DNA of 64,000 bases from Scenedesmus sp. ARA3 (Eukaryota; Chlorophyta; Chlorophyceae; Sphaeropleales; Scenedesmaceae), in assembly GCA_004335835.1 (NCBI GenBank), contig RWJK01001052.1, positions 51,214-115,213 of the forward strand, given 5' to 3'. Positions within the stretch are counted from its first letter, which is position 1, and every line of letters starts with the position of its first letter. This document shows positions 954 to 48,660 of the stretch, piece by piece. Under the pieces are notes generated by a model. The model ran no database searches. It was not told the origin of the DNA and saw nothing but the letters and a program-made list of their open reading frames with translations. Position numbers and translations under genes: made by a program.

Positions 954-3900
954 TCAAGAATTAGCCAATATAGAGTCCACTCTGGATGCATCATCCCCTC
1001 TGCTGCCTTCGCTGCCGCTGCGCTCTTCAATTGCCACCCCTTGAAGCTGCTGCTGCTGCTGCCCCTGCACGGCTGCCTGTCCAGCTGCCAAGCCACCCAC
1101 CTTCTCCCGGACCTCCTTCAACCTCTCAGCTGCTGCACCGGCCGCCGTCCCTGCTCGCTCCCTCAAACCCTGAACCCTCTCCCCCAACTCCGCCTGCTGA
1201 ACCCTAGACCCTAGCTGCTGCGCCGCAGACTCTAAACCCTTGCCTGCTGCCTGCAGGCCTGCCTGCAGCTCCTGCTGCTCTGGAAGGGCCTCCTTGGCTC
1301 GTTCTGCTAGGCCCTTACCAGCAGCAGCAGCACGCTTGCCCAACCCTTTCAGTGCATCCAAAGCTGCCTGTGCTGCTGCGGGCTGCTCTGCTGCGCGTGA
1401 GTTGGCAACAGCTGGATTGGGCGCCTGCTGCAGCTGCTGCTTGCGGCTGCTGTCGCTTGCTGCCTGCCGCCGATCTTCGCCGGCATCAGTATTGTTGTCA
1501 GCTGCCTTGTATTGCAGCTGCTGCTCCCTGCTGCTGCTTCTTTCACCAGCATCCCGCTGCTGCTGCTGCTGCTGCTGCCGCGGCTGCCTGCCATCCACCA
1601 CAGCGGCCGGCAGCAGCTTCCTCTCATAACTGTTACTTTTGTAACTGTCGTCATCATCGCCATCAAGCTCCAACACGCGCTGTTTGAAGGCCGCGCCGGC
1701 CCTGCCCAGCTGCTTAGCCACCACTTGTTGCCCAGGAAGCTTCGGCAGCTGCGGCTGCGGCAGCTGCACCAGGCCAGCTTGCACAGCCAGCAGCAGTAGC
1801 ACTCCTGCAGACATAGCAGCGTTGCAGAGTTATGATTGCACGCAGCAATCAGAGCTGTACCAATCCAGCTTGCACAGCCAGCAGCAGCAGCACTCCTGCA
1901 GACATAGCAGCGTTGCAGAGTTATGATTGCATGCAGCAATCAGAGCTGTACCAATCCAGCTTGCACAGCCAGCAGCAGCAGCACTCCTGCACACACATGG
2001 CTGAAAAGTTGCCAGGCACGTAAGGGAATCAGGCACAGGTTGCCGCCCGCATCACACCCGCTATCCCTGCACATACAAACATACTGACATCTGGATTGGC
2101 AATCGCTTTGTCAACATCTGGAGAGCAGCCCCCATTAGGCCCTCACAATCATCAACAGCCCAACACATGCTAGCCTGCAGCTGTCTTTTGCTCTCCTCAC
2201 TTGCCATGGCGCTGCCCGCCAGCATGCCTGGCACCATGGCAGCATGCAGGATGCACAACCCCCATCACCACAAGCCGCCTCACCTACGAGTGCGCTGCCA
2301 GCCAGTATGTCTGGCCCCAGCAGCACGCCAGCAGCCACCACCACACCCACACTGGATGTTGAGCCCCATGCATTTATGCAGGCTTTGCAACTTTCAACTC
2401 CACAGCGACACAAACAGCATGCTAATGAAGACAAGCTCTTTCAAGGTACAAGACTGACCCACACAGATTTGCTTGACGACATTGAAAAACACTTGATTGC
2501 ATTGCCGCCTCACCTACGAGTGCGCTGCCCGCCAGTATGTCAGGCCCCAGCAGCACGCCAGCAGCCACCACCACGCCCACTGGATGCAGCCAGTGCGCTT
2601 CCCATCACCGGCATGATCCTTGGCCCCAACCATGATATGCATTATCAAACTCAAAAACCTTATGGAAGGCATGCGATGAAGATTACGATGAAGCCATGCC
2701 GGTAAAGAGTAATTGTGAAACACCCTGAGAACCTCACCTACGAGTGCGCTGCCTGCCAGTATGTCAGGCCCCAGCAGCACCCCAGCAGCCACCACCACGC
2801 CCACACTGGATGCAGCAGGATGCTCCTTGACAAACTCCAGCACCGTATAAATGCTGCTGGCGGTGGCTTCGGGATGGGAGATGGCCAGGTAGGCCAGCAG
2901 CGCCGCTATGGCGGGGTAGAGCAGGTAGCTGATGGCCAGCTGTGTATGGGTGAGTGGGTGAGGACAGATCAAGGTGGGAACAGGTTAGGTGATAAGATGG
3001 GTTGAGAAGGTGGGACAGGTGTGATGGGAAATGTTGGCCAGCAGCAGCAGCAGCAGCAGCGGCGGGGTGCTCCTTGACAAACTCCAGCAGCGTGTAGATG
3101 CTGCTGGCGGTGGCCTCGGGGTGGGAAATGGCCAAGTATGCGAGCAGAGCTGCGATGGCGGGGTACAGCAGGTAGCTGATGGCCAGCTGCAAATATAGGG
3201 TGGAGGCGTGGGCGAGGACAGATGAAAGTGGGAACAGGTTAGGCAATGAGATGGGCTAAGGTGAGAAAGGTGTGAAAACGGGTTGGCCATCTGCGCGTGC
3301 AAGCGCTAGTGCGAGACATGAAATGCTGGCTAGGTAGGACAGCAGTGCTGCGATGGCGGTGGCAAGATGGTGGCAATGGTTGAGATGGCGAGAAATGGTG
3401 AAAGAGGAGGGGAGGGAACAAAATGGCAGCCAGCAGCTCTAAGATGCCTATGTCTGCACTACAGCAGATAGGGTATACTGATGCGCTTGCTTGGCTTACG
3501 CTGACACCCACTCTCATTGTGTTGGCTTCCACCCGCCTGCTGCCATGCTAAACCCTTTTTCACACCAGCAGGCAGCAGCAGCTGCTGCTATCACTACATA
3601 CACTGCAGCTGCAGTGCTCACCCTTATAAGCTTGGGGAACAGCAGTAGCGCCAGCACTGCTGCGCCAACCGCCAGCACTGGCGAGTGCAGCAACGAATGC
3701 AGCGGACTGTTGTCAACCAGGAAGTCAGGCACATACACCTCTTTATGTGCTCTAACGCCCACTGTCATAGTGCCTGCTTCAACCCACCTGCTGCTATGGT
3801 ACATCCCCTTCCACCCCAGCAGACAGCAGCAGCTGCTACTAACACCGCATACACTGCAGCTGCCAATGCTTACCCGAATGAGCTTGGGGAACAGCAGCAG

Positions 3901-4329
3901 CGCCAGCACCGCTGCGCCAACTGCTAGCACTGGCGAGTGCAGCACTGAATCCAGAGGGTTGTTGTCAACCAGGAAGTCAGGCACATCAACCTCTATCCTG
4001 GCAGCAGCAGCGCTGCCAGCCGCTGAGGCAAAGTGTGCAGTAGCAAGGAGGACACTGCTTGCTGCTGCTTCTGCAGCTGTTGCTGCTGGGGTTGTTGGCG
4101 CTGACGGTTGGGTTGTTGAGGTCTGCCTGGTCTGCAGCGCACTGCTGCTGCTGCTGCTGCTGCATGTAGTAGAGGAGTTGCCCTCTAGCAACAAGCATGA
4201 TGACTGTAGCACGTCATGCGTTCTTTGCTGCTGTAGTGAAATGCTGTTGGTGACACAGCGACGCCTGTGTGCCCCTGCTGCTGCTGTTGCTGCTGCTGCA
4301 GGCAGCTGTGCACGCCTGGGACACTGCAC
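954..4329 (-). CDS. Multi-pass membrane protein with LEA-like amphipathic C-terminus, possibly plastid-targeted
   Basis: I assemble three exons with matching phase: 4329-3874, 2939-2738 and 1804-954, giving 502 residues. The family is not recognised. The N-terminus (about residues 1-110) is rich in Ser, Thr, Ala and Arg with almost no acid, as in an algal plastid transit peptide (inference). It is followed by VDVPDFLVDNNPL and a hydrophobic stretch ending FPKLIR. Exon 2 continues with LAISYLLYPAIAALLAYLAI, a soluble loop with LEFVKEHPAA, and another hydrophobic run that crosses into exon 3. The C-terminal half is hydrophilic, with polyQ and Ala/Lys/Glu/Gln-rich repeats (LKGLGKRAAAAGKGLAERAK) that should form long amphipathic helices like LEA or apolipoprotein segments. 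Exons 1, 2 and 3 all have extra partial copies in the introns, so which copy of exon 2 is used is inferred: only the 2939-2738 copy is complete from acceptor to donor. It lies on the same strand as, and 444 bases downstream of, the APR-like gene. Confidence 0.66.
1774..1980 (-). repeat. 91-bp tandem repeat carrying an exon acceptor
   Basis: The motif CCAGCTTGCACAGCCAGCAG begins at 1774, 1865 and 1956, a spacing of 91 bases. On the minus strand each unit contains a CTGCAG-type acceptor followed by the first bases of the last exon of the neighbouring membrane protein gene; the third unit is altered at the acceptor. The lowest-coordinate unit is the one used in the gene model. Confidence 0.85.
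2277..2800 (-). repeat. Three copies of an exon 3' end with its donor site
   Basis: The segment encoding VVVAAGVLLGPDILAGSALV, followed by a GTGAGG donor, occurs at about 2277-2350, 2507-2580 and 2731-2800. The 2731 copy is continuous with the full exon 2; the two downstream copies lie in the intron. A weaker fourth copy is visible near 2205-2240. Confidence 0.8.
2800..3190 (-). repeat. Duplicated exon 5' half (247-bp spacing)
   Basis: The stretch encoding LAISYLLYPAIAALLAYLAI through FVKEHPAA occurs at about 3186-3058 and again at 2939-2800. Both copies have an AG acceptor directly in front. The upstream copy runs into a (CTG)n tract instead of the rest of the exon, so it is probably not a complete exon. 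Confidence 0.85.
3497..4014 (-). repeat. About 259-bp duplication of exon 1 end plus intron start
   Basis: Two diverged copies (about 3497-3755 and 3756-4014) each encode VPDFLVDN...LHSPVLAVGAAVLALLLFPKLI, followed by a GTAAGC or GTGAGC donor and similar intron sequence. The upstream (higher-coordinate) copy is joined to the N-terminal coding region. The other could be an alternative exon or a relic. Confidence 0.85.
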
Positions 4330-4730
4330 AGCATACCCAGACAGCAGCGCAGTAGCTCAACCGAACGCGTCATGTAACCAGGCATGCACTGCTCTCGCTA
4401 CCGAGAGCGTAAACAAGCGAGGTGTGAAGACTTGCAGGAAGCATGTTCACAGCAGCAACAGCAGCAAGGCATCCCACCTGCACCACGCCCCGGATCGTCA
4501 TCAGCCCGTACCGTGTGGTACATTGACTCGTTCGAACATTATTCTCTGCGTTTGGTGAGATTTTGCGTGCTAGATGCATGGCAAAGCGGATCGTAGACGA
4601 TGCTGAGCTGTCACGAGCATGAACGGGAACGCTGTCCTCATTCGGCGCAGCAGTACCCAAGCTGCGTTCAGTATAAGCGGAATTGCCACATACACGTAGC
4701 AACACGACAATCTGGTGACAGTGAGACACG

Positions 4731-4735
4731 TTACA
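4731..4735 (-). terminator. TGTAA poly(A) signal of the APR-like gene
   Basis: TTACA on the plus strand reads TGTAA on the minus strand, 39 bases downstream of the stop at 4774. TGTAA is the characteristic chlorophyte polyadenylation signal. Confidence 0.6.
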
Positions 4736-4773
4736 CCGCTACAGGAGGTGTAGGGTTGTTTAGGGTCGAGCAT

Positions 4774-4932
4774 TTAGGAGACTGCAGTCACACCAGGATT
4801 GCTGGTGGTGCTGGGAGTGGCACTGCTACTGGCTGCACCACCTTCTAACACCACCACTTCACCCCCTGCTGCTGTTGCTGCTTCTGCTGCTGCTGGTCCA
4901 GCAGCAGCATTCCCTTCTGCTGCAGCTGCTAG

Positions 4933-4982
<50 letters not shown>

Positions 4983-5943
4983 GTTTCCACTGTTGCCGCA
5001 GCCACCACAGCGCCCTGCACGCCTGCATCAATCAGCAGGAACACAGCAAGCCCAGTAAGCGGCAGCAGCAGCAAGCAGCACCTTCCAAAGGGCTTTGCAT
5101 CCCCTGACCAACACCACAGCACAACAACAATCGACCCACACGGTGCGGGCCACAGCGCTCCACAGCAAACAGCCTCAAAAACACTCACGGCACTACCAAG
5201 AAGACCACACTAAGCCTGGACGCATAGCGGCTCACATCATCTCCAGACTTGCAAACGCTAGAAGCCCATATTCCACTGCACCCAGCACAGCACAAACATT
5301 GCACTCGTAAAGCTCACCAGGAAAGCCACGCTGAATCAGACAAGCAAGCACACATTGCACAACCAAGGCTACGAATCCTCAACCCAAGAGCATGCATTAC
5401 ACCGCACACAGGACAGCCAAACATTTCTTTGATAGATAAGACATTATTATACCAAAACACTCACCAGGAAGGCCACATTGAGCCAGAAGAAAGCTGCGTG
5501 CTGCTGCCTCAACAGCTCCTCCACTGTGGCCTCACCATCCCCACCTCACACAACCAAACCTTCAAACCTAAGACGCATGCATCACACTGCACCTAGGACT
5601 GCCAACCATTCAATTGTTTTGATAACATCAACTCTTCAGACACTTACCAGGACAGCCAACAATGCAAAATCTGATACTATACAGTCTTTAGTAAATTGAT
5701 AAATTATATTTAAAACACTCACCAGGAACGCCACGCTGAGCCAGAAGAATGCTGCGTGCTGCTGCCCCGACAGCTCCTCCACTGTGGCCTCACCATCCCA
5801 TCGGGGGCAGCTCCAGCCGCCACACACCTGCTGCTGCTGCTGCTGCTGGTGGCTGGCAGCAGCGTCAGCACCCCCAGCAGCGCACGAGCCTGCGCTGCTG
5901 TTGTCAACGCCAGCAGAGCTGTTGCTGCTGCTGGCGTTGAGCA

Positions 5944-5978
<35 letters not shown>

Positions 5979-6807
5979 GCGGCTGGGCTGCAGAGCTGTG
6001 CCACCTCTAAGCTTGCCAGCGGCTCCTGGCCCTGGGGCAGCAAGCACAGCAGACAGCAGTTAAACACTGAAAGCGTCTCAACGTCTTAAAGTGTCTAAAG
6101 CGTTATCATTGTGGACTAACGAAGGGCCACCTCTAAGCTTGCCAGCGGACCCTGGCCCTGGGGCAGCAAGCACAGCAGACAGCAAACACAGCCAACACAA
6201 AACACGTGTATCATTCCTCTAGTAATTGGAAGCATCCAGCAAGGGCTTTGCAGCATGTGTATGTATGTGGCTGACTCAAGCAGCGCTGATTTGACATACT
6301 CTTGCTGGCAGCAGTTACACAGGCGGCTGCGTCAGTAAATGCTGCAGCATGTGCAGCATGATGCTGTAGTGCGGCAAGAGTCAAACAGAGAGAAAGAGGG
6401 AGTGTTGCCGCAGCCCCCTCACCAGCGCCTTGGCCACAAAGTGCAGCGTATTGGGGCAAAACAAGACACAGAGAGAGACCAAGATAAACAAAATATGTAG
6501 AAAAAAATGCTGCCGCAGCCCCCTCACCTGCGCCTTTGCAAGGAAGTGCAGAATAATGGGGCAAAACGGGACACAGAGAGAGCCACAGAAACCAAGAATT
6601 GAAAAGACTGCTGCCGCAGCCCCCTCACCAGCGCCTTGGCTACAAGTGCAGCATAATGACAGAAAGTGACACGCAGAAAGAGAGCGAGAAAAATAAGGAT
6701 AAAAAGAATATAACAGTGCTGCCGCAGCCCCCTCACCAGCGCCTTGGCCACAAAGTGCAGCATGGGGCCCAGCCAGTGCTTGCCGCTGTAGCGGTACTTG
6801 CGGCCCT

Positions 6808-6840
<33 letters not shown>

Positions 6841-7903
6841 GCGGCAGCAGCAGCAGCTTCAGCAGAGACGCCAGTTTTGGTGTTTGCGAGAGCGACATTC
6901 ATGCTGGGATGGCCCCAATCACAACCAGTCAAGAATGACACAGTGCACTGCGGAGTGCAACAGCTGAGAACAATGTCACAGCACATGGGCTGTCAGGCAA
7001 CATTGCAGCTGGACTGCTGGTAACACAGCTTCCATCACATACTCATGCACTTTTCAAACCCACGTCCAGCATCAAACCCAATTGACACAGCCAAAAAGCG
7101 TATCCAAAGCACTTGCAAGCCCGCCTCACCCGCGCGTTGACCTGCAGCACCGGCACCTCACATCAACACGCCCCAACAGGTGACCCAGCAACCAGCTGCT
7201 ACACCAACTGACAAACCCAAAAGCCTACCCCTTACTGTGACAACACCAACTGACTCACCCACGCATTGACCTGAAGCACCGGCAGCTGAAACTGAGTGCA
7301 AAACTGGAACCACCAATCAGCTTCTACACCAACTGACCAGCTGACACATCACTCCTAGATCATTTCTAACCCGCCTCACCCGCGCGTTGACCTGCAGCAC
7401 CGGCAGCGCGTGCAGGCCGTGGCTCATGAGCTGCATCAGGCTCATGTCGCTGTAGCCCACGCTCACAAAGCGCACCTGCAGCAGCGAGCAAAATAAGAAA
7501 CGACATCTGTCATTGGTGATGACATCATTCATGATGAAGAAAGCTTTTGGCAAAGGGTTGGCAAAGGGTTTGGGGATGATATGCTTCTGCAACTTGCAAT
7601 GCTGAGGCATGAGGGGCACGCCAGCTGCTGCTGAACCCTCTCCAAACCAGAGAGAGTGCCAGCTGGTAAGCGCCGGGTGTCTTCCCTTGGAAGAGCTACA
7701 CGAAGGCATACTGTGTACGATCAGCGTACCGCTGCGCATCATCAAAAGTTGCAAAGTGTTACATGTTCATTTGCTGTGGCTGTAACAATGTAACATGTTA
7801 TTTCTGCATCATTCGAAAGAGCTGCTGCTGCTGCCAGGGTGGTGCAGCTCACAGTGTCAGGAAAGAATGCTGGCAGGCACTCATACACTGGCTTCATGGC
7901 ACT

Positions 7904-16346: not shown

Positions 16347-16348
<2 letters not shown>

Positions 16349-16409
<61 letters not shown>

Positions 16410-16466: not shown

Positions 16467-16532
<66 letters not shown>

Positions 16533-18920: not shown

Positions 18921-21002
18921 ACTCATCAGCAGGCCGTCATCTTCCAGCTCCTGCTGCAGCGCAGCAATGAGCTCCGCCTCTGTCATTGGCGCATCACACA
19001 ATGCACAGTCGGCAGCAGCAGCAGATGCGAGCAGCGATGCATCAGCGGCGCCGCAGCACGCTAGGTCACTGTAGCTTGGGAAGCGCAGCAGCGAGGCTTG
19101 GTGGTGGTGCACAGCCAGGCCCGGCTCCGCTGCTGTTGCTGCTGCTGCTGTTGCTGCTGCTGCTGTTGCTGTTGCTGCTGCCGCTGCTGTGGAGCTGATA
19201 GACAGGGAGGCTTGCAGGAGGCCTCCTGCAGGAGGTGCTGTTACCTCTGCGCCGGTTGCAGTGCTGAGCGTCTGCTGCTGCTGCTGCTGCCCGCTGCCAG
19301 ATCCCGTGCTTGTGCTGGACTCCCCACACTGCACGATCAGTGTGGTGGATGGCGTCGCTGCTGCTGCTGCTGCATGCAGCAGGGGTAGCTGTGCGCTGCG
19401 GGAGCGAGTGGCCATGCCTTCTTGCTGGATGCTGTTACCCCACTGGCTGTTTATTTCCGGCAGCAGCTCTGAAGCCACGTCAGCAGCAGCAGCAGCAGCA
19501 TAGCAGGGCTCCTCCTTGATGGCAACTGCTGCTGTTGCACCTGCTCCTGCTGCTGCGTCCTTGTTGTCTGCTTCAGCGAATGCAGCTTTCACGGCGTCTG
19601 CTGCAGCCTCTGCTGAGCTTGCGTGGGTGATCGGGGAGATGCTGCGTGCTGCGTCATGCGAGGTGCAGCCTTTCTTCAGCAGCTGTGCACGCGTGCCGCT
19701 GCGGCGCTTGGCCAGGCGGGCGCGGCAGCTCCTGCAAGGTGAATGATGCAACAGGAAGAAGCGGCAGCAGGCAGAGCAGCAGGGTTTGAGAGTGGGTTGC
19801 GGCGCTCTGCCAGGCGTGCGCGGCAGTTCCTGCAATAACGCAGTGGTGGGCGATGGATGCATCAGACAGCAGCAGCAGGAGCAGCAGCAGCAGGGATAGC
19901 AGACTGGCTTGAGTGTGGTGTGGTGCGGTGGTCGTTGTGCAGATGATGGCCTGCGCGCAGAATGTAGGGCAGTTGCTGTGGTAACCTCTGGACGGATCAA
20001 CATGTTTTGCTTGGTTGCTGCTGCATGCGCTGTAAGCTTAAGCAGCGTGGCTGTAGCACCACCAGCCATGCATGTCATCGCCTGCTCACCGTTTGGTGTC
20101 ATCTGAAGGGAGAGGCCGCCGCAGTATGGAGGGTTGGCAAGCGCAGCAGCAGCAGCAGCAGGCAGCAGCAGCAGTCAGTGCAAAATCTTTGCAGCGTCAG
20201 TGTCAACGGCTAAGATGCACGTCTTGCTGAGCAGCAGCAGGGGGTGCTTGCTGAAGTGCAGTGTTGCTTGCAGTCATACTTGTGCAATATACGGTTAATC
20301 TCAGGAGCAGTGCTAGATGCACAGATCCCATTTGTCCGGATGCTTCTGGATGCAAGCAATTGCTGAACCGGATTTGAGGCAGCTCACTCACCGAACTTTG
20401 TCAGGCACTCAAACTTGCCGCATTGCTGGCAGAAGCGGTACTCTGTGGGGTCGTCCGCTGACAGCTGCACTGCTGGCGCCTGCATGTGAGCCGTGCACGC
20501 CTTCTTCTTCAGGCAGTAACTCTTGGTCAGCTGCGTGTTGCAGTGCAGCACCTGCATTGCAGCAGCAGCAGCAGCAGCAGCAGTTTGGTGGAGAGGTGGT
20601 TGCATGGCGCTGGTGCCGCTCAGATGTAACATCAGCATGGTTGCTGAGTACCATGCTGCATTGAGTGAAGAAGGATGTTTGATCTTCAGATGTTGCAGAT
20701 GACGGCTGCTGCATGCCGGTGTGGCTTGTGTATGCAACTGGATGCGTCATCCTGTTTAGTTTCTTTTGGGCTCGGCTTTGGGGCTTTTGGCACAGGAGCA
20801 CAGCTGGCAGGCAACTTGCATGCAAGCTGCATGCAGGGTAAAGGAAACTGGATGTGATTAAAGACTAGCCAGCATGAGCAGCTGTAGATCCGTGCTGGTG
20901 CAGCAGCATGCGCACCTGGCAGAACTGCAAACCCTCTTCATCTGCTGCTGCCTGTGGTCCGAGTGCCCCCGGCGCTGGTGCTTCGCCTGAAGCTTGATTC
21001 AT
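17526..21002 (-). CDS. SBP-box transcription factor
   Basis: Three exons join in phase: 21002-20916, 20551-20388 and 19731-17526, giving 818 residues. The SBP domain lies near the N-terminus (about 28-95) and is assembled across both introns. Zinc site 1 has C28, C33, C48 and H51. Site 2 has RFCQQC (C70, C73) and SCRARLAKRR (C86), which also supplies the basic nuclear-localisation end. In known SBP domains the residue after RF is His; here it is Glu77 with Cys78 next to it, so Cys may take over as ligand. The spacing between the second and third Cys is two residues shorter than usual. SBP factors bind GTAC-core DNA in the nucleus. The rest is low-complexity polyA, polyQ and polyM sequence, with a short ordered island LDYLNGSELRTLFHAALTPNEI. 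Intron 2 contains two decayed copies of the exon 3 start. Confidence 0.85.
19800..19980 (-). repeat. Two decayed copies of the SBP exon 3 start
   Basis: On the minus strand, 19835-19800 still reads CRNCRARLAER next to a TGCAG acceptor, matching the true exon (CRSCRARLAKR) but out of phase with it. A second, more decayed copy lies at about 19975-19940. Both sit in intron 2 of the SBP gene. Confidence 0.75.
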
Positions 21003-25500: not shown

Positions 25501-28500
25501 ATGATACAGAAGTGAAGCAGGCATCAGCAGCAGCTCAAAGCGCTCCACAATGTCCTGCAGCAGGTTGCAAAAAGCACCGTAAAGCAAGGGATCAACCGCA
25601 CATGTCAGCTGGTACCATGGTGCAAACATGTGATGGTGATTACAGTCGCCAATGTCCTGCAGCAGGTTGTTGTAGCGATCAGCCAAGTCATTGAATGTTG
25701 CTACGAGGGTTCATGAGCTACAATTGTGGGTTAAAAGTCAATTCAAACCCACCTGGCAGGCCAGCGTCCAGAGCTTGTTGGTGTCGGTGCGCTTGTAGAC
25801 CTGCTGCCCCTAAACCTAAAACCCGAATAACAGGCATCGCAAACCCAAACCAACAGCCTGGTCACCTGGCAGGCCAGCGTCCACAGCTTGTTGGTGTCGG
25901 TGCGCTTGTAGACCTGCCCCTCAAAAACCTAACACCCAAATTACATGCAGCGCAAACCAAGAATCACAGGCCACACATACCTGGCAGGCCAGCGTCCAGA
26001 GCTTGTTGGTGTCGGTGCTTTTGAACCCCAGCAATCCCAGGAATCCCCAGCCATCACCCTGACATCAGCACATCAACTCTACACAGCCACAGCCGCACAG
26101 CCCCTGCCTACCCACCTGGCAGGCCAGCGTCCAGAGTTTGTTGGTGTCGGTGCGCTTGTAGACCTGCCCTTTGAGCTCCACAAAGTTGGTGGCGATCATC
26201 AGCGCCAGCAGCGCGTTGGCCTTGCTGTTCATGGTCACAGCAAACACCATCGCCTGTTGTAGCAGCAGGGAGTTCATCAGCACAAGCAGCGCATTAGCTT
26301 TGCAACTCACAGTTAGACAGCGTGCAGGAGACGCCGGGGCACCGTACAAAAACTGAAGGCACAAACACGCTACTGCGGAGATTACAAACAGAGCAAAGTC
26401 TGGCGGCGCAACTGGCGTGCTATCTTGCAACATGGCATGCTGCCAGCCAAGGCCAAGCAGCAACGTGTGTGTTTCGCGCACCGGCAGGCTACCCTGTCCA
26501 GCAGCAAATCAAAAACAAACGCCGCACCTGGCACATCAGCCACTGCTGTGTGCAATGTATATATATCAGCAGGTATGGCACCAGCAAACCAACAAGTTTG
26601 AATGCCGCCGCCGCAACAGCACCATCACCAAAGGACCACACCACCACACTCCGCACCTGGCACATGAGCACGCTGCCGTGCGCTGTGATCAACAGAAAAG
26701 CCACCGCCAAGTCTGACGCCAGCAGGCCCAGGTCACATGAATAACAGCGGTCCCAAGGCACAAACTCAAACTCACAAGGTGAACCCACACAGCACATGCC
26801 GAACATTCTTGAGACATTACTGAGCCCAACAGCGACCAGATAAAACAACCACAGCGCCGCACCTGGCACATGAGCACGCTGCCGTGCGCTGTTATCAGCA
26901 GGAATGCCACCGCCAGGTCTGACGCCAGCGGCCCCAGGCCTATGCTGTGGCGCGTGAACAGCGTGCAGGTGCTGCTCAGCGCCTCCAGCACATCAACACC
27001 AAAGTTGGACAGGATCTGCAGTTGATATGGCGACAAAAAAGCGGGTCAGGCCAGGACTATGTGTGACAGAAGACAGGTTTTACAGCAGAATGTGCTGCTC
27101 AGAGCCTCCAGCACGTCCACACCAAAGTTGGACAGGATCTGCAATCATAAAAGGATTGCAAAGCAGGGCGTGTCACAACAGAAAAGGAATGTGGCACTGA
27201 GGGAAGGTGACACAGATAAAGGTGCTGCTCAGCGCCTCCAGCACGTCCACACCAAAGTTGGACAGGATCTGCGTTTGTGGCAGATTTACAAAGAAAGACT
27301 GGTTACAAAAAAGCATGAAACTACAAAGCGTTTACACACATAAGGTGCTGCTCAGTGCCTCCAGCACGTCGACAGTTGGACAGGATTTGCACTGTGTACT
27401 GTGCATGACCTGGATCATCATTGTCGTAGAAGCCAGCAAACCCGGCCTGTGTTGCTGCTGCTGTGCTGCATGCACATGCTGCTGATCAGTGCAACCAGCA
27501 ACCTGCCACCGCACCACACCTTCTCCAGGATCTCCAGTGCAGATCCTGCTGCTGCTACTGCTGCTGCTGCCGCTGCTGTGCTGCACCATGCTTGCACTGC
27601 TGCAGACAGCCACCTAGCACCAGCCGCAGCCGCACCTTATCTAGGATCTCCAGTGCAGTGAAAATGACCTGGATCTTCAAAAACTCCGATGTTATGTCCT
27701 TCATCCAGTAGTAAATCACCCCAGGCTTGATCAGACTCAGCACGCCGGCAGCCGCCAGCAGCAGCAGCACACACAAAAAGTCGTACAGCTGCGCCCCAGA
27801 GGGCACGCCGCGGCTGCGGCTGCCGGCGGCAGCTGGCGGCTGCCTGCTGCTGCTGCTGCGCGCTGCGCTTGGCAGCAGCAGCAGCGAGGAGCCCAGCTGC
27901 CACATCGTGCGCAGGCAGCGCAGCGGCAGCACCGTCAGGGCCCCCTGCAGGAATAAGAAGCAGCAGAGATGCAGCAGAGTGCAGAAGCATTAGTGGATGT
28001 GTGGATTCCTGCAACTGACGTTGAGCAGCACATGGCATGTCAATGGGCTGCTGCCGCTGCTCACCAGGAAGGAGTAGAGGCACAGCAGCGTGCCAAAGAT
28101 CAAGGTAACATGACCATGTAATGCCTGACTGCTGCTGCCGCTGCCGCTGCTGCTGCTGCTGCTGCTGGTCACCAGGAAGGAGGAGAGGCGCAGCGGCGTG
28201 CCGAAGATGTACACATACACGCTCATGTAGTGCCCAACTGCTGCTGCCGCAGCTGCTTCCGCCACCGCTGCTGCCGCTGCTGCTGCTGCTGTCGCTGCTC
28301 ACCAGGAAGGAGTAGAGGCACAGCAGCGTGCCGAAGATCATGATGCGCTCCAGCTGGTAGGGCACGTACAGCAGGAAGTTGTAGCTACAGCCAGGAACAA
28401 ACAACACGTGCAGTTTGCAGTTTCAGTGCATTTTAAAAGCCAGGCCAGGCACATCGTGTGCAGCGCTTTCATTGGATGCACAGGCACATCACTGCTGAAA

Positions 28501-30527: not shown

Positions 30528-32070
30528 ATGGCTGGCCTGTTCAGGGCCAAGAAGGCTTTTGAGGAGGGAGATGTAGAGTTCTGGCACAACCCAGAGCGTG
30601 GAGGCTGGCTGATGAAGCAGGGTAAGTATGTGTCGCAGCGCAGCAACAGGTGCCGCATGCACAGTGAGCTCTAGTGTGCTCCTTGACACATTGATGCTGC
30701 AAAACTGCCGCTTCTGATGCTCATGCTTTACTGCATGCATGCACTAATGTGCTGCTGTCATTACTGCAGGGGAGTACATCAAGACATGGAGGCGCAGGTG
30801 TGCTGCAGCATTTAAAGTGCCAAGCGCCACTTGCATGTTCCATGCATGCGCAGAGCATCACAGCTGGCCTGCAGCTGCTTTCCAGCTGCAACGCGCAGCT
30901 GCATTTTTCAGTCTGGGCAGCACCTGCAGTATGCAGTAGGAGGGAGTGCACATGAGCAACAGCAAGCGCACTGCACCCGCTGACTAGCAGAGCTGGGTGC
31001 CTGACGCCCTGCCCTACCGCTGCTGCTGCTGCTGCTGCTGCAGATGGTTTGTGCTGAAGCAGGGCAAAATCTTCTGGTTCAAGTCTGATGTGGTCACACC
31101 AGTGAGTGCTGACACAGCAGCCAGCAGCAGCAATGCCACCTTTTAGGCAACAGCGCAGCAGCAAAGACTGGTTACACCTAGATGCTCAGTTGCGATGCTA
31201 GTTGCAGTTGGTTCAAGTCTGATGTAGTTGCACCAGTGAATTGCGCAGCAGGCATGCTGCCCAGCTGCCAGCAGCAGCAACGCTGGCTTTCAGGCAACAC
31301 AGCAACAGCAGATACTGGTTACAGCTAGGTGCCCAGCTGCCATGCCAGCCATGTTGCAGCTGCGCTGTTGTCACACTAGTTTCGCATGCTGCTGCAGCAT
31401 GCAAGCTGCAGCAACAGCAGCAGCAACCAGTTTGATCAACCTGTCGTGTTGTATTGTCCTTGCAGGACTCTGTGCCACGGGGGGTCATCGAGGTATGTGA
31501 TGCTGCTGATTCGACTGTCGACACGTGCTGTGATGTGCTTGTCTACCACTCAACTGCTTGTTGTTGGGGCTCCTGGCTCCTGTGCACAGCAGTCATCTAA
31601 TAGAATGTGTGCTGCTTGCGCATGCAATTGCTTGCATGTTGACTGGGTTGCATGGACCTGCAGCGTTTCCGCAGCACACGACACTGTAAATTTTGACAGA
31701 TGACAGTTATGTTGGTGGTACATTGTTATATGTAACCTCCTGCTGCAGGTGAAGAAGTGCCTGTCCATCAAGGGTGCGGAGGATGCCATAAACAAGCCGC
31801 ACGCATTCGAAATCTCAACAACAGACTACAACATGTTCTTCATCGCTGACTCGGATAAAGTGAGTGGCACTTTATGCGCATTTTCTTCACCATCATCGTC
31901 TTGTTGTCAACTAGGCCATATGCACCTGTTAGGTTGCAAGGGTGATGAAGCGTTATAAGGCACTGTGTGGCTTTTTTTGTGCCTTTGCTCGGATGCATCT
32001 CGGGCACCATGACAGCAGCAGGCTACAATGTTTCCCAGAGATTAGTTGACCTGCTTGCTGCTGCCATTGC

Positions 32071-34191: not shown

Positions 34192-35479
34192 ATGGCTATC
34201 GGCTCAGTCCTACTTGCAGCAGTGGCCCTGGTTGCTATTGCTGTGCCTGTCACTGGTGCGATGAAATCTCACCAGCAGCAGCTCTCAGCAGCAGCAGCTA
34301 ATCTCACACAAGCAAAAGCAGAGGCAGCAAGCAGAGAAGCAGGCAGCGGCAGCACGTTGCCGGAAGCTGCTGCTGTGCTGCAGCCGGTGCCAGCTGGCAC
34401 ACCAGAGTGCAATGGAGTTCCAGGGTTGTGCTCTGTGCCTGTCAGGTGAGGCAGCGGTGCTGTGGCCAACTATAAACTCACAGTTACAGTTAGAGCTGTG
34501 ATGTTCAAAACGTGTACACACCTCCTCTTACACCACTGTGCTTGTTTTGAAAGCTCAGTGGCAGCAGCGGCGCATGCATGGTCTTGGCTGGACCAGCAGC
34601 ACAGCAGCGCTGGCATGCAGCATGAGTTGCAGCATACATTCAGCCTTGAAAGTTGCACGAGCAGCAGCAGCAGCAGCAGCAGTAGCAACAGCGCCAGCGT
34701 TAGTATGGTTTCAGCAGGCCAGTGACATGCTCTGGCAGCAGCAGTTCGGGGCACCTGGGCGCCCCCTGCTGCAGCTGGCGAATTGTCATTGAAGACAGAA
34801 CTCCTCAGCAGCTGGGCTGATGCACAAGGTGCTTGCAGCGCGTGCCACACGTATTCCCACCTATGATGGGCATCAGAGCACCCAGACAACGGCAGCAGCT
34901 CAGCTTTTCAGCTGTCGTTGCTGCAGGCTCACTAGTATCTCCTGCAATGCTGGAGCGCAACACCCTGCCGCACATCACCGCAGCTTCAGCTGCATCTTGA
35001 CTCATCGTGTTTGTTCTGCTGCTGCTGCTGCTGCTGCTGTGCAGGTTGGTCACATTCGCCGGCACTCACAACAGCAACGCAATAAAGAACCGGGAGTTTA
35101 TCGCGGAGAGCCAGCAGCTGGGGTTCAAGGAGCAGCTGGCGGCTGGCGTGAGGCTGTTCGACCTTGACTTTGCAGGTGCGTGACAATATGTTATGTATGT
35201 GTTACAAATGTGTTACATATGTAGTGTGGTGAGGCTCAAAAACCGGGAGTCCATTGCAGAGAACCAGCAGCTGGGGTTCAAGGAGCAGCTGGAGGCTGGT
35301 GTACGACTTTTTGACCTGGACTTTGCAGGTATGTTACAGCTGCAGTACACAAATGTGTTGCAAATATCTTGGGATTGGAATGCTTTGGTGAGTTCTTTGC
35401 TGCCGAGCTCAGCAACAAGCGGCTAATCTGGCGTTCTGGCAAATTGCACAGAGAGGCCGCTTCCATGAAGGCAGCAGCA

Positions 35480-35525: not shown

Positions 35526-37230
35526 CTTGTTGGTGGTGGGTGCTGACTGGGCACCACATCAGCATCAGGCAAATCAAATTGTAGAGGGCAACATCAGCTG
35601 AATTACAACGCTTCATGCAAAGACGAAGCAAAAGCCACCCTGCTAGTGTTTTGAATGTATGCCTGTGCTGAAGTTTGCTGCATGCTGCGTGTTGTGTGCT
35701 TTCTGCTGCAGGGCCGCAGTATGGTGGGCGGCTGGGCCACTGCTTCTCCTGCTTTTGCGCATCTTAAAGCTTGCTGCGTGCTGTGCGCTGCTGTTTGCAG
35801 GGCCGCAGTATGGTGGGCGGCTGGGGCATTGCTTCTCCTGCTTCTGCAGCTTCTCAGCAAACCTGGATGACTCAGACCCGGCAAAGGTAAGCAGCAGAAG
35901 GTGCAGCAGCCAGTGCTGCTGACACACCTTGTCACAGATGTTACCTCTGTGAGATCTTGTTACTTCTGCCGCAAGCGGCTCCTGCAAGTTGTATGTCAAT
36001 GTCGTAACACTCAGAAGACAGCAAGTTCAAACATTTCTTCCATTGGCACCTAGCCCCTGCTAATGCGTATGAACTGGCTGCTCCGCTGCAGGTGTTTGCG
36101 GCTATGGCTGATTTCCTTGCAGCCAACCCGCGTGACGTCATCGTCATCGGCATGAGCAACATCAACTGTGGTGACAAGGAGGAGGCCCGCCAGCAGCTGC
36201 TGCAGGTGCGCGGCGGCAGTGTGCATACAATGTCACATAACAACGTGTGGCTGAATGCAATTGCCAGTGTAGTTGTGATCAAGTGACTTGATGATGGTAC
36301 CTCACAAGTGACTGCCAACACCATGCTGGGCCAGCTGGTGGATTTGCTGCCATGCCAAGGCCATGCCACCAACTGTTGCGCCGTATGTTGACTGGCTGTA
36401 TCTTCTGCAGATGCTGGCAGCATGTCCGCTGTACGAGCATCTTGCCACCACTGCCGTAACTGTCAGCACCCACTGGCCTGGATTTGTCGTGTTGTCAATG
36501 CTGCTGCTGCTATCTCCACTGCAGGTGCTGGCGGCGTCTCCGCTGTCGACGACCTTGCCACCACTGTCGTGAGCCCCAACACCACGTTGGGCCAGCTGGT
36601 GGACTCCAAGCAGCGCACAGTATCATGCCACCAACTGCTTTGCGACATGCTGAATGGCTGCCGCTGCAGGTGCTGGCGGCAATTCCACGGCAATTCCACA
36701 GGCATTTGAGCGCATCTGTATGCACTGCCAACGCCTCACTGCGCCAGCTAGTGGGCTCGTAGTTACATTGCAATTTGCATGGCTGCTGCAGGTGCTGGCG
36801 GCGTCCCCGCTGTACGATCATCTTGCCACCACTGTCGTGACTCCCAACACCACTCTAGGCCAGCTGGTGGACTCGAAGCAGCGTGCATTGCTGCTGTTCT
36901 ACGACCAATGGACCTCACCAAGCGGCTTCAAAGTCGGCAGCAAGGTGCGCAGGGGCCAGCTAACCGGGGATGCAAATTACAACTTGCTGTGAGCTACAAC
37001 TGTAAAGCGCAGCTCCCCCTTGGGTGCCAGAAACCTATCTGCGTGCACTGATGTGCTGTGCGCCGTCAATCAAGCCCGCCACGTGTATGCCTCTCTGCTG
37101 GGACTCGTGCTGACTGGCGTCCCGTGACACCAGCCGCTGAAAAGCCAATAGTCAAGGCTGTTGCGTACCATTGGGCGACCTTGCAGGTCTCTGCGTCTCA
37201 CACGTGCCTTCTGCCATCATTCAATGCTGG

Positions 37231-37277
<47 letters not shown>

Positions 37278-38880
37278 GCAGGACGTGCCCAACCAGCCGC
37301 TGGTGCGTGTCTACGGCGGTGACACCACAATCGACGCCACAGGGGCCGCAGCAATTGATGCCGAGCTTGCAACAGAGCTGTTGTCAGACATCAGCAGAGG
37401 ATTCAAGGCTGCTGCTGCAAGTGTGGAGTCACCCTGGAGGGTGCTGGGCTTGTTTCCTTCAACCTGCCTCAGCTGCAGGAATGCGGCACAGTGCGGGCCC
37501 ATCAGCTGTGCCATCAAAGTCAACACGGAGGCGTTTGTGCTGTACAAATTGGGCAAACTCACAACAGAGTGGCTGGTGGCGCAGGGCAAGGCACAGCTGG
37601 TGCCAGCCTTCAACGGCTACCAGGTGGGTGGTGGCATCTAAGGGTTGTAGGGTTTTGAGCGTGGAACCCTAAGCCGTACACACAGAGTGGCTGGTGGCGC
37701 AGGGCAAGCCGCCTGCCTTCAACGGCCACCAGGTGGGTGATCCACAGCGAACGGGTTTATGTACAACACTTGATTTATATTATCAGTAGCATTGCACGGC
37801 ATCTGCACACATGCATGTGAGCAATGCATGTACAATGTGTTTGGAGCGCAGGGCAAGCCGCAGCTGGTGCCTGCCTTCAACGGATACCAGGTGGGTGATT
37901 GCAGCAAAGAGTGAAACAAGCTCATGCTGTAATCAATTCACTTAAACATGGTGGTGATGCACAGCATCAGCAGCACAGGCTTGTGAGCAATGCAGGTTAT
38001 GTACGGGGCTACGTGACCACAACCACCGCTGTAAGTGTGTGACGGGGTGGCAATCATGCTGGGAATGGCATCGCTCACACAGGAACCTTGTCACGCAGCC
38101 AACTCACACCTATTGCTTGCTGCTGCTAGTCCTGTCTCCATCAAAAACCCGTCACACGTGCTTTCCTGGTTTCTGCTGTGCAGGTTGACTACTTTGGGGT
38201 GGCTGGCGGCAACCGGGGCCTACCGGAAGCAGCGGAGAGGATCAACAAGGCTGCTGCTAGTCCTGTCTCCCTCCAAGCAACCAATACACGTGCATTGCTG
38301 CTGTGTGCAGGTTGACTACTTTGGGGTTGCTGGCGGCAACCGAGGCCTGCCAGAAGCAGCGGAGCGACTCAACAAGGCTGCTGCATGGATGTATGTGCAG
38401 CGTCCAGCAGAGGCCCCCAGTCAGGGCCTTGGCAATTGTGTGTGGCTGCTGGATGATGCAGCAGCAGCAGGAGGCCTGGCATGTGTGCATCATGGGCAGC
38501 AGAGGATCGATTCTCTGCTTGGGCTGGCAGCAGCAGGCAGTACAGATGGTACAAGCAGTACAGGCAATGCGTCATCTGGCAGTACAAGCGGTACAGCTGC
38601 AAGTAATCCAGTGAGCAGGTTAATGTATGGACGGCGGCTAGCTGCAGCTGATGCAGCAACAGCAGCAACTGCAGCGGATGCTGTGACGGCTACAACTGCC
38701 AGCAGCAGCAGCGGGCGCAGCAGCCGCTGGGTGCTGCTGCCGGCGAATGCGAAGCTGCAGCTGCAGCTGTTTGAAGGAGGGAAGGTGAAGCGGCAGGTGA
38801 TTGGCACGCCTGGCAGGCTGTCGTGGGTTGATGTGGGCAGCAGCGCAGATGCTCTGCAGGTGCTGTGGCCTTCAAAGTAA
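34192..38880 (+). CDS. Secreted PLC-like phosphodiesterase (PI-PLC X-domain type)
   Basis: Seven exons join in phase: 34192-34445, 35045-35175, 35801-35886, 36092-36205, 36792-36944, 37282-37623 and 38311-38880, giving 549 residues. An in-frame ATG at 34141 would add 17 residues; I prefer 34192 because it starts a clean signal peptide (MAIGSVLLAAVALVAIAVPV). The TIM-barrel motifs follow: TFAGTHNSNA with the first catalytic His (His93), GVRLFDLDFA with acidic residues at 124 and 126, and GGRLGHCFSC with the second His (His138). After that come DVIVIGMSN, LGQLVDSKQRALLLFYDQW and VDYFGVAGGNRG. This matches PLC-like phosphodiesterases that lack Y, C2 and EF-hand domains. These usually cleave phosphoinositide or GPI-type lipids, but the substrate here is unknown. 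The C-terminal 190 residues are Ser/Thr/Ala rich. A TGTAA lies 28 bases after the stop. Introns carry many partial exon copies. Confidence 0.87.
35045..35330 (+). repeat. Duplicate of PLC-like exon 2 3' part
   Basis: The exon end encoding NREFIAESQQLGFKEQ...GVRLFDLDFA (to 35175) is repeated at about 35238-35328 as NRESIAENQQLGFKEQ...GVRLFDLDFA with its own GTATGT donor. The copy starts inside the exon and has no flush acceptor. Confidence 0.88.
35708..35886 (+). repeat. 90-bp tandem duplicate of PLC-like exon 3 acceptor end
   Basis: GCAGGGCCGCAGTATGGTGG occurs at 35708 and again at 35797. The first copy keeps the acceptor but loses the rest of the exon; the second is complete. Confidence 0.88.
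36290..36830 (+). repeat. Echo copies of PLC-like exon 5
   Basis: The true exon start (36792, encoding VLAASPLYDHLATTVV) is echoed at about 36409-36470, 36522-36615 (long, including GQLVDSKQR but frame-shifted) and 36664-36690. An internal piece (CTGGGCCAGCTGGTGGA) lies at 36325. Most copies keep a CTGCAG acceptor. Confidence 0.88.
37563..37900 (+). repeat. Three copies of PLC-like exon 6 donor end
   Basis: The exon end encoding TEWLVAQGKAQLVPAFNGYQ with its GTGGGT donor (37623) is repeated at about 37684-37738 (with a deletion) and 37848-37896. Both copies keep CCAGGTGGGTG. Confidence 0.88.
38130..38400 (+). repeat. 127-bp duplicate of PLC-like exon 7 acceptor end
   Basis: GCAGGTTGACTACTTTGGGG occurs at 38180 and 38307. 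Each is followed by the segment encoding VAGGNRGLPEAAER. The upstream copy then runs into TCCTGTCTCC intron sequence that also precedes it. Confidence 0.88.
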
Positions 38881-45297: not shown

Positions 45298-46904
45298 CTG
45301 CGCTGTGTGTAACCCATATTTGACGTGACTCCCCCAATAATTTTGTGCTTATGAATTGGAAAGTTAAAACGCACAGGCGCTGTTTACTGTATGCCGTATG
45401 CTGGCTTTTCAAGCGCGCATTCACTGATTGGCGTGTTTAGCGCCTTGGTTATACCAGGCACCCCGGCAGCGGCGACCTCCATTGCAACCACAGTTGACAA
45501 CATTGTTTGCTCTTTGGAGCCACGCGTAATGACGATGGCCGATCTTGCCCGGAATTGACCTGTCACTCAACACACCCGCACAACGCCACTGTGCTCTTGC
45601 CACCCCACAGCACCGATACATCCGTTGGTGTGTACCTTGTAGTACATTTTACAGTTCTGTTGGCTTCTGCTCGCCGCCCAGCCCCACGTTTGCTGCGTTG
45701 CGCAGCCCTAGTGGGAATATCCACGACCGTGACTGTGCACTATCTGCATGCAGCAGTGTCTGAGCTGGCCGACATTGCCAATGTGGCCAATGCGGCATGT
45801 GTTGTCCACTGCACGGCTGACCACCAATGAAGTTATTATTTATTTCCTTGATCCGCATTTGTAAGCAGCACCAAACAGCTTGCAATTGCAAATTCTCTGT
45901 CAACAGCAGCTGATGACGCGTCAACACAGTCAGCATACTATGCTGACACTATGATAGTGTGCAGAAACACGTGTGTGTTCTTGGATGTACATGCACACTC
46001 ACTCAGCGCGCAATCCCTGAATCCCGATGGGTCGCAAACGCCTCAGCTTTGAGGTTCCAAGGCCAAAGCCAACCAGGAATCTTTGTAAGTGCCAAGCAAG
46101 CAACAGAAAACCCATCATGCCATCGGTGCGCAGCCGTGCCATCATAGCCAAAGCCAAGCACAAGCTGCAGGACCGTCCTGCCTGTGAGGGCCGCAGCCTG
46201 AAGCAGTTAAGGTCATCAGCATCCCCGCTCCCTCTCCACTAGAATGTGGACAACCATGTTACCTATTGATCCGTAGCGTGGTGGCGGGCTGAGACCAAAC
46301 CCCATACCGGCATGCCACTGCCATTTCGATTGCCATGCACATGCCCTGCACCCCTAAAACCTTGAATGACAGCAGTCGAGTTAACGTGCTGAAGGCCACA
46401 GTGTATGCATGCCTGCCGCGCCTCGCTCGTTCACTTTGCGCATGGATGCATAATGCAGCTGTAAACTGAGCACAAGCAAGCATGTTGTGCTGTTTACAGC
46501 TGCATGCGCACAACTAAGTAGCCCGCTGCCAACCAGCAGCATGCATGCTTCAGGTACAACCACCTGCTGCTGCCCTTGCCGTAGCAGCTGCAACTGTGCT
46601 GTACAACTGTGCAAGACGAAACAAGGTTTCAAAAGGCCATCACAATATTAGATATGCATGTTGCTGCCATGGTCGCACCCTGGGTCGTCTCGAAGGCTCA
46701 GGGCAAGCTGTTATACAGCAACTGCTGCATGGTAGCAAGCAGCGTCAGGTGTTCTCGCTACAACTGGTGTGTATGGCCGGCTGTCACAGCTACCACAGCT
46801 ACGATAGGCAACTGACAGCGATCCACCTGCCCCTGATACAATATACTGCTCGGCAACAGCTCCAGTCCAAGCCAGCAGCTGCGGCGGCGGCTAGCGCAGC
46901 GCTG
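45298..46904. other. Region upstream of the peptidase-LRR gene and downstream of PDCD5
   Basis: The missing first exon(s) of the peptidase-LRR gene should be in the left part. A minus-strand frame near 45560-45470 reads VNCGCNGG, which resembles a C1 peptidase motif but has no supporting splice sites. A 71-codon plus frame at 46027-46242 (MGRKRLSFEVPRPKP...) has an intact start but no known relatives that I recognise. PDCD5 3' UTR occupies the right end. Confidence 0.4.
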
Positions 46905-48660
46905 TCACTCGTCGTCCGCGAACATGGGCCGCCTGCGCTGGATGGTGATCTTGCTGGCGGCTGACTCTCGCTCACTGATCTGCTCCAGCATGCCCTTCAG
47001 CTGGTCCTCAGTGACCTGCAGCAGACATACGAGGCACATATGTCAGGGACAGCTTGAGAGCATTCAGCAGCTGGAATCGCATCCGAGGAAGGGTAAAAGC
47101 AGCTGGTCCTCAAGGACCTGCAGACACACGTGCAGCACACACGTGGATACGGCACAGCAAGAGTTGCCTTGCAACGCTTTGTTGGAGGAGCTTGACCGGA
47201 CACTGGGAGCAAGCGTGTATAGTGCTTGACAAAAGCCGTGTCCCACCAAAGTGCTCAACTGCAAGACCATGAAGGGGCTCAAGCGCAAGAACATACGTGG
47301 CACAGACATGTGACTGCTGAGGATGCATAGCACAGGAAGTCCATTTGGGGCAGCACAGCAACTGCTGCGCCATGTGATCCCCAACACGTGCGTAAGCACC
47401 GATACCTGAAAACAAGCAGCGTACACTTCACAGGAAGCAGGTACGTCTGCCACTGCACGCACACACGCACAGCTGGGGCAGTGCGGCGCTTGCAGCGCCA
47501 GCAGCCAGTGACCCACAACATGCATCTGTTACTGTTCCCTGCAGCAGTGCCTCACCTTGCTCTGCAGTGCTCCGCGCTTGGCTGCCGTCAGGATCATGTT
47601 TTCTACGTTGCGCGCCTTGTCAGGCTTCACCAGAGCGACACGCGCAACTGCATGCAGCAGTATATTGGAAGTGATGGTCAACACACGCATGTGTTCTAAC
47701 CGGGCAGTGCGACTTGAAAGCAGGTGCAAGCTGCTGCATGCCTACGACGTGGCGCTGCTGGCAGGGGCCACCCAGAGCAGCACAAGTAGATTACAGCTGC
47801 CTGCAGATGCATGCAATGCAGCAAGCATACCATACAGCAGCAAGCTGCTGCGCCAACATGTGGCGCACTATTATTATCACTGTAGGTGAGGCAGATTTGT
47901 ATGCCACAATGCTGTGTGGCTGTGTGCCATAGCAAAGCAGCGCTGCAATGTGGCTACTGCTGGGTGCAGGCTGGCGCATAACATGTGCTTACGTCTCTCT
48001 CTCGCGTCAGGAGCCATCACTGCATGCAGCATGGTGCGCCGCTGCTCCTCTGCTGCCCTGCAAGTGCGTACATGAATTGTCAGTATTGTACCAGGTTTGA
48101 GGTTGTGAGAGACGGCGAGTCTGCTGAAAATGCTTGCAGGATACAAGCAGCACTAGCAGGACGAGCAAGCGTCACTGCCATCCACACGCACATCACCCCT
48201 TGCCAGCATGCTCAGTTGTCACAGCATGAAATTATACGCCAATCTCAACTGTCTTGCAACAATGAGCCACTCAGCGATGCTTCAACTGATGCAGGCACAG
48301 GCTGACGTCGGAGCCAGGCACTGCTGTCACTGTCACTGACACTCCCTAGCCCCACCTGCGAGCTTCCTCTTGCTGCTCTGCATCCTCCGCTGAAGGCATG
48401 CCTTGTGCTCCCTGCAGTGACGATCACAGCAGCAGTGGGGAGCACGTTGACAAATGCGAAACCAGCAGGTACTGCTGCTGCTTTTGAGCATAGTGCGATT
48501 TCAAAACTCACCGGCGCCCCACCACGTGCTGCCATCATCTCGGCCATTCGCCTTTGCCTGATTGCCTCAAGCTCGGGATCCTCCTGCAGCACGAACACCG
48601 CTTACAGCCTGCTGTGCCAGGTGTCTCCCTCTGCGACTGAACTCATGTGCCACCTACCAT
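46905..48660 (-). CDS. PDCD5: PDCD5 / TFAR19 family protein
   Basis: Six exons join in phase: 48660-48658, 48583-48512, 48411-48356, 48057-47993, 47647-47556 and 47015-46905, giving 132 residues, close to the usual 125. The sequence follows the family from end to end: DPELEAIRQRRMAEMMAARG, the helix EEARRAAEEQRRTMLHAVMA, then ERLARVALVKPDKARNVENM, VTEDQLKGMLEQISERES and KITIQRRRPMFADDE. PDCD5 is a small conserved helical-bundle protein of nucleus and cytosol, linked in animals to apoptosis and to chaperonin and acetyltransferase partners. The start is unusual: the initiator ATG (48660-48658) is followed directly by a GTAGGT donor, so the start codon alone forms the coding part of exon 1. A short copy of the last exon's acceptor end lies at about 47097-47125 in the intron. 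Confidence 0.92.
47090..47130 (-). repeat. Echo of the PDCD5 last exon acceptor
   Basis: AGCAGCTGGTCCTCAAGGAC, followed by CTGCAG (minus-sense acceptor), resembles the true junction at 46998-47020 (TTCAGCTGGTCCTCAGTGAC then CTGCAG). Confidence 0.7.

Follow-up and report, generated by a model that had tools for sequence, protein, structure and literature searches.

Exon ends of several genes have been copied into the adjacent introns in a 64,000-nucleotide stretch of the genome of the green alga Scenedesmus sp. ARA3 (contig RWJK01001052.1, positions 51,214 to 115,213 of the forward strand; hereafter the window). Each copy, here called an echo, combines an exon edge and its splice site with some intron. 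In the echoes the exon sequence and the splice site are nearly intact although the intron around them decays; such preservation would not be expected in DNA removed by splicing. This coding-like constraint was missed by the preliminary description of the window, which had reported the copies themselves, and we rank it as the most surprising result.

Results

The sequence base consisted of the window (positions 51214-115213 of the contig labelled C739), 20 stretches of at most 10 kb and five more, giving 299,087 bases on 20 contigs with 4,966 N, or about 0.34% of an assembly of 87.27 Mb and 1567 contigs. Exons were predicted from the DNA sequence alone by a small gene finder trained here, with the strand chosen exon by exon. 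They were counted on 18 of the 20 contigs; C565 and C802, which hold long low-complexity frames, were left out, and stretch L021, all N, was dropped. Fifteen echoes were initially called as exons by this simple finder and were removed from the parent set because they were themselves echoes. A few redundant pairs remain in the counts, for example echo 25981-26058, which is still treated as a parent. Self-comparison of the window gave about 51 local direct repeat pairs with spacings of 64-585 bp; these lie between 1762 and 38384, with a further group at 62513-62931. Local inverted repeats were limited to two palindromes. When all 299 kb were pooled, 281 direct pairs and 1 inverted pair were found at distances of up to 1 kb.

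At least one end was copied nearby in 65 of the 211 predicted parent exons, in agreement with an earlier tally on less data (51/172). The donor end was copied in 43 of 195 exons having a donor and the acceptor end in 24 of 199 having an acceptor. Donor-end copies lay downstream in 88 of 92 pairs and acceptor-end copies upstream in 39 of 42. Neither exon end was reached by another 15 pairs, and 4 reached both. This intron-side position, together with the joints shared by the units of one array (arrays reach about eight copies), is what tandem duplication requires. The tandem duplication of junction-spanning units proposed in the preliminary description is thus supported for donor and acceptor ends, sometimes for both ends of one exon. 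Junction copies were recovered in all seven genes that it had named: those of the membrane-protein, APR-like, TAPT1 and PLC-like genes passed BLAST thresholds and those of the SBP, PH1 and PDCD5 genes a shuffle test. These genes are unrelated and lie on both strands, and the frequency in the rest of the sampled genome indicates that the pattern is not local. Among the named genes, Pfam confirms TAPT1 (PF05346) and the PH gene (PF00169) alone; the PLC-like, APR-like and membrane-protein pieces matched no Pfam family. SBP and PDCD5 are putative names taken over from the preliminary description.

The nearest spacing of exon-end copies was 89-157 bp in 46 of 67 cases and 183-314 bp in the other 21, with none at 158-182 bp, so that the unit sizes given earlier hold. 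The second spacing group is about twice the favoured 90-155 bp unit. Repeat families away from exons had a period of 85-160 bp in 13 of 24 cases. A predicted junction was contained in 59 of 105 repeat families, compared with 29.1 +/- 4.2 on random placement within the same stretch (highest of 300 placements, 43). The corresponding figures were 60 against 33.1 +/- 4.3 expected for a second exon set and 47 against 30.2 +/- 4.1 for a first, poorer one. Three echo units were searched across the genome, and each matched its own locus only. A correlation between the lengths of exon part and intron part (rho -0.38, n=46) was not used, since restricting the units to 80-165 bp in part imposes it.

The identity of the copied sequence drops at the splice site. 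In ungapped donor pairs it was 0.97 over the terminal five exon bases and 0.86 over the adjoining five of the intron, and then 0.52, 0.41 and about 0.3. In ungapped acceptor pairs the five intron bases nearest the exon had 0.92 and those immediately before them about 0.5. When gaps were permitted, half of 127 intron flanks exceeded the 95th percentile of unrelated flanks, indicating that intron sequence had originally been duplicated too and has decayed since. The splice dinucleotide was kept in 117 of the 127 echoes (GT 81/88, AG 36/39). The median donor score was 7.39 for echoes and 7.62 for parents, and echo acceptors were weaker than those of the parents (5.29 vs 7.05). For 53 of the 127 pairs the intron flank aligned no better than unrelated flanks do, and even there the missense share was 0.32. 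Four-fold divergence stayed at 0.20-0.21 irrespective of how far the intron flank had decayed, a constancy that the detection threshold could also cause. Among 30 arrays, the farthest echo had a more decayed intron flank (22.4 vs 40.3, p 0.02) and equal exon identity (89.4 vs 90.5).

The differences between echoes and parents were then read as codons. Left out of the codon tests were the pairs classed as 'other' (15), double-ended (4) or wrong-side (7), and a pair had to span at least 6 codons. Differences in correctly placed pairs were distributed over the three codon positions as 119:112:459, and among 2478 codons the changed ones comprised 398 synonymous, 213 missense and 2 stop. The share of missense plus stop was 0.351 (bootstrap over parents 0.29-0.41), compared with 0.608 for a simulated neutral echo of a constrained parent and 0.590 when the substitution spectrum of the intron flanks was used. 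Forty of 45 parents fell below the neutral expectation, and the 2 stop changes compare with 13.7-15.3 expected under neutral simulation. The share was 0.348 for donor echoes, 0.358 for acceptor echoes, 0.374 outside C739 and 0.357 without contig C1197, while wrong reading frames gave 0.89. TAPT1 alone had 5/30 against an expected share of 0.54. Gaps and mismatches stood at 30:694 in exon parts and 29:184 in alignable intron flanks (p 6e-6). Calculated by hand, the ratios of observed to expected were about 0.14 for stops, 0.27 for indels and about 0.37 for missense changes, which is the order expected from graded harm. These counts drop low-complexity stretches and echo-echo pairs; an earlier, looser count that pooled them gave 479 synonymous and 340 nonsynonymous changes, no stops and 58 frameshifting gaps among 68. 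States common to several echoes but not to the parent were 37 synonymous and 7 nonsynonymous, and codons in which all echoes agree against the parent were 23 and 5. Such shared states are strongly synonymous, as expected if echoes of different birth times preserve old states of the parent exon.

The preliminary description had suggested an ongoing process that builds introns and supplies decoy or alternative splice sites. To see whether formation is aimed at junctions, windows of 60 bases were examined for a local direct copy, with the larger classes sampled at 250 windows each from 417, 536 and 876. Exon edges had a copy in 74/376 windows (last 60 bases 46/186, first 60 bases 28/190) and exon interiors in 0/195. 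The first 60 bases of introns were copied in 9/139 cases and the last 60 in 10/132, compared with 12/237 for intron interior without a known echo and 8/222 for far intergenic DNA; intron windows overlapping an echo gave 91/115. The neutral classes of intron and intergenic DNA pooled to 39/730. Because junction-adjacent intron was copied about as often as other neutral DNA, formation looks untargeted. A junction hot spot would predict an excess in the neighbouring intron too; hardly any was found there, so the excess of copies at exon edges points to retention and not to aimed duplication. The copies do lengthen introns; a process aimed at junctions is not supported by these rates.

TAPT1, on the minus strand, is the clearest case, with copies at an end of seven exons. 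Its exons joined without the copies match PF05346 with E 5e-65 over profile positions 4-310 of 315, which places the copies outside the protein. The best relative is a protein of Scenedesmus sp. NREL 46B-D3 (95% identity over 73%), annotated from part-way into the gene, which has no echo peptides. Exon 23973-24104 (IIIDIAKHAVLGKFN) has a donor echo at 23856..23899 (97.3% over 37) and five acceptor echoes at 24197..24710 (4 pairs at 94.7-100%). A 102-bp array of donor echoes of exon 25320-25448 occupies 24915..25259 (TRF, 95% matches, 3.4 copies), and an acceptor echo of the same exon lies at 25521..25560 (94.1% over 34). Three donor echoes (QVYKRTDTNKLWTLACQ) of exon 26116-26253 at 25750..26018 retain the exon part at 96.3-98.1% with intron flank scores of 10-13, and this unit is found nowhere else in the genome. 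For exon 26863-27015, one donor echo (26640..26732, 90.8% over 76) and three acceptor echoes (27092..27391; 93.6, 95.9 and 83.7%) were identified. The exon reading YNFLLYV... (parent about 28285-28384) has three copies of its donor edge at 28047..28340.

The other minus-strand genes carry further echoes. In the membrane-protein gene, exon 2738..2948 (LAISYLLYP...SALV, donor at the low end) has donor echoes at 2508..2590 (94.9% over 79; intron flank not alignable, score 14) and 2278..2358 (94.7% over 75; intron flank score 12; unit nowhere else in the genome). Its acceptor-side echo at 3059..3275, with about 120 nt of exon plus intron, matches 2812-3024 at 82.7% over 220, and two copies of an exon with flanking intron, 251 bp apart, lie at 3501..3994 (83.5% over 243). 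Exon 5723-6031 of the APR-like gene has a donor echo at 5454..5541 (92.2% over 77) and an acceptor echo at 6126..6184 (96.6% over 59). Donor echoes of exon 6737-6805 form an array at 6400..6763 with a period of 105 bp and 3.4 copies including the parent edge, and the region 7120..7405 contains a donor echo, 7120-7155, of exon 7380-7475 (36/36 identical). The short cases were judged by local alignment score against the highest of 500 letter shuffles. On this strand they are the acceptor echo of the SBP exon ending at 19731 (19798..19840, approximate limits; 38-nt alignment, 56 vs 26) and that of the last PDCD5 exon, 46905-47015 (47080..47125, approximate limits; 40 vs 24).

One repeat of the window differs from the others. 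At 1762..1995 (minus strand) a 91-bp unit is present in 2.6 copies, duplicating the start codon and a signal-like N-terminus upstream of the gene; the third copy has lost the ATG reading. Two echo pairs in it each have 4 synonymous and 0 missense changed codons. In correction of the preliminary description, what this repeat duplicates is a start-codon region and not clearly a splice junction. A translation start may here be echoed in the manner of a splice site.

On the plus strand, the PH-gene exon 31044-31101 has a donor echo at 31209..31260 (score 50, shuffled maximum 30; 74% over 140). The PLC-like gene has a donor echo of exon 35045-35175 at 35238..35338 (83.2% over 101), an acceptor echo of exon 35801-35886 at 35680..35758 (93.6% over the 47 of the exon part), two acceptor echoes of exon 36792-36944 at 36402..36615 (83.1 and 88.0%) and two donor echoes of exon 37282-37623 at 37682..37912 (80.0 and 91.1%). 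An acceptor echo of its last exon (38310-38878) lies at 38119..38257 (90.5% over 74). The open frame running through this exon and its echo (38035-38880) matches an independently derived protein, P0051, at 99% over all 274 residues, with three differences of which two are inside the echo. As P0051 carries both echo and parent, assembly error is disfavoured at this echo, and the echo shows allelic variation.

When the open frame across a starch-synthase echo (L024) was searched, 5 of the best 120 of 182 matches (P0054, P0059, P0065, P0071 and P0074) turned out to contain the exon twice, once in partly decayed form, and the exon in these sequences is clearly different. In these granule-bound starch synthase frames the decayed copy is upstream of the real exon stretch. 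Judged by these matches of other origin, the sequences suggest that exon echoes are not confined to this species.

Several other features were observed. Isolated palindromes, some perfect or nearly so, occur at 22202-22247 and 46453-46505 of the window and in stretches L022 (4723-4788), L010 (2179-2293) and L008 (3531-3610); local inverted repeats are otherwise almost absent from this genome. The window also contains a (GCAA)n microsatellite at 16347-16532, broken by a 57-base N gap, and a 32-bp minisatellite of about 7 copies at 13412-13638, where no exons are predicted. CTG runs often occupy the position of the pyrimidine tract directly 5' of an acceptor CAG (for example at 31020-31043, 32080-32145 and 37230-37281). 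Low-complexity open frames of about 1,900 aa in L011 (about 907-6625, minus strand) and L014 (1-5620, plus strand) were kept out of the counts.

Discussion

The best explanation, in which our confidence is a little less than even, is that tandem duplications of about 120 bp spanning junctions have their exon part kept clean by array turnover. It joins observed features (anatomy, sidedness, size, untargeted rate and constraint) to a turnover step that we infer. Short tandem duplications, mostly of about 90-155 bp, arise throughout the genome. Where one spans a junction, the message stays the same as long as the outermost site is spliced, so that the duplication would be tolerated and the extra copy left as an intronic echo. 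Exon edge and splice site of the echo are then held by a coding-like purifying selection, as the kept GT or AG and the deficit of missense, stop and indel changes show, and the intron part drifts. Recombination or slippage between echo and parent would delete a unit and move echo sequence into coding position; an echo with a damaging change would give broken genes among the descendants and so be weeded out, and synonymous changes would be tolerated.

A constraint of this kind could also arise if echoes were used in RNA, as isoforms or in decoy splicing, with the exon part translated often enough for selection. The almost parental strength of echo donors, the kept GT and AG and the constraint itself would agree with such use, and adequate partner sites arise by chance (median acceptor score 3.4 in random windows). 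However, for donor echoes the highest-scoring acceptor candidate at the free end reached 3.9 against that 3.4; for acceptor echoes the corresponding donor candidate reached 1.7, against 0.7 in random windows but 2.2 at the parent's own position. The length of the would-be exon was divisible by 3 in 19/51 and 4/13 cases, and the spacing, which bears on read-through from the parent, was a multiple of 3 in 27/65 (p 0.19). Weaker echo acceptors and the TAPT1 protein of the relative also speak against use in RNA, which we consider unlikely; with no convincing partner sites and no frame preference, the echoes are unlike alternative exons. As the separate-exon and read-through routes are thus unsupported, return to a coding position is the remaining route. 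Such a return, by loss of a unit or by exchange, should leave splice sites preserved, stops and frameshifts purged, synonymous changes tolerated and introns free to vary, and each of these was seen.

The synonymous excess might instead be inherited allelic variation in a hyperdiverse species, the echoes being recent and the parents since swapped by recombination with synonymously differing alleles. This reading, which we find rather unlikely, would account for the synonymous states shared among echoes and agrees with the allelic differences displayed by P0051. Against it, about 9 stops are predicted from the missense changes (by hand, from a 0.029 stop share) where 2 were seen, indels are depleted, and the 53 unalignable intron flanks occur at a four-fold divergence of 0.21, although duplicated neutral DNA is alignable at about 75% identity. 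Ordinary neutral tandem duplication, in which echoes seem frequent because the exon copy held by selection stays recognisable longer, is improbable. Geometry alone puts junctions into many units (the 29/105 of the random placement), neutral DNA is copied as well, and a constrained partner alone would slow divergence about two-fold; but the simulation that includes a constrained parent gives a share of 0.59-0.61 and 14-15 stops, compared with 0.35 and 2, and already disfavours it. An assembly artefact, with diverged haplotype pieces stitched in tandem at exon edges, is very improbable. The unit is about the size of a short read, conserved exons with diverged introns resemble alleles, and the assembly is gapped; yet arrays of up to about eight copies share the same joints, P0051, from another source, has one window echo with its parent, the starch-synthase matches from other sequences carry a second partial exon copy, and two units have no second place in the assembly.

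Some results weigh against duplication followed by array turnover. Changes private to one echo, in arrays with at least two echoes, reach a missense share of 0.51 (0.43-0.58) against 0.70 under neutrality, so the constraint is partial. Frame-shifting gaps make up 28 of the 30 in exon parts. Turnover predicts mosaics and stronger constraint near the junction. No mosaic tracts were detected in 65 overlapping triples, a comparison of low power (237 switches against 240.9 +/- 9.6 expected), and the missense share, at 0.32 within 45 nt of the junction and 0.44 beyond, pointed in the predicted direction but did not differ significantly (difference 0.125, 95% -0.005 to +0.264); the mechanism is therefore still one that we infer. 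The exon set, moreover, comes from a home-made, sequence-only predictor.

Internal gene duplications that take in both exon and intron and create introns were reportedly described by Gao and Lynch in 2009. Introns are also known to be gained through tandem genomic duplication (PMC3443670); the algal echoes, described here at the level of DNA, keep one splice site, and its partner is no better than random. In the potato RdRp gene, a duplicate runs across an intron-exon boundary and takes over the splice signals of its parent sequence (PMC4974935), and the algal case is likewise a local direct duplication across such a boundary. That account describes one event with a new spliced intron shown by RNA (PMC4974935), whereas the alga has tens of events in 0.34% of its genome. 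Unlike the potato copy as described there, the algal copies are mostly inside existing introns, have no convincing partner sites and show a coding-like constraint on the intronic copy. Introners represent an intron-enriching process reported in several lineages of aquatic eukaryotes including green algae, and they are families of similar introns dispersed over many genes (PMC9860276). The algal units, to judge from the three searched, are private to one junction; identity with introners was rejected on this ground. Many introner families also carry target site duplications or terminal inverted repeats.

The echoes resemble tandem alternative or mutually exclusive exons in being adjacent copies of exon sequence with synonymous divergence. 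Mutually exclusive or cassette exons were rejected, since echoes are partial exons with one splice site and follow neither a length rule nor a frame rule. As under concerted evolution or gene conversion of duplicates, coding positions are held similar while flanks diverge; unlike converted duplicates, the echoes are sub-exonic, lie inside the gene's own introns and gave no mosaic tracts. No description of recurrent, constrained junction copies was found in a literature search that reached few subscription journals. Tandem duplication across an intron-exon boundary is described in detail once, in potato, and the recurrence and constraint of junction copies would be new.

A wider reading, offered tentatively, is that introns hold living reserves of exon ends. 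Exon edges would act as recombination anchors, arrays of junction copies would expand and contract, and any copy might become exon again, so that intronic DNA would be under protein-level purifying selection without being translated in place. If so, gene structure in this alga would be a population of interchangeable junctions and not one fixed boundary, and recombination load would be a measurable force on intron sequence. Translation is normally regarded as proven where a reading frame shows purifying selection; should spliced-out copies show such selection because they can recombine back into the exon, that conclusion would fail there. Gene finders and repeat maskers will mis-annotate echo-bearing genes, as our simple finder first did. 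The system would allow direct tests, in a small culturable alga, of the rate of junction duplication, the growth of introns and the harmlessness of duplicated splice sites.

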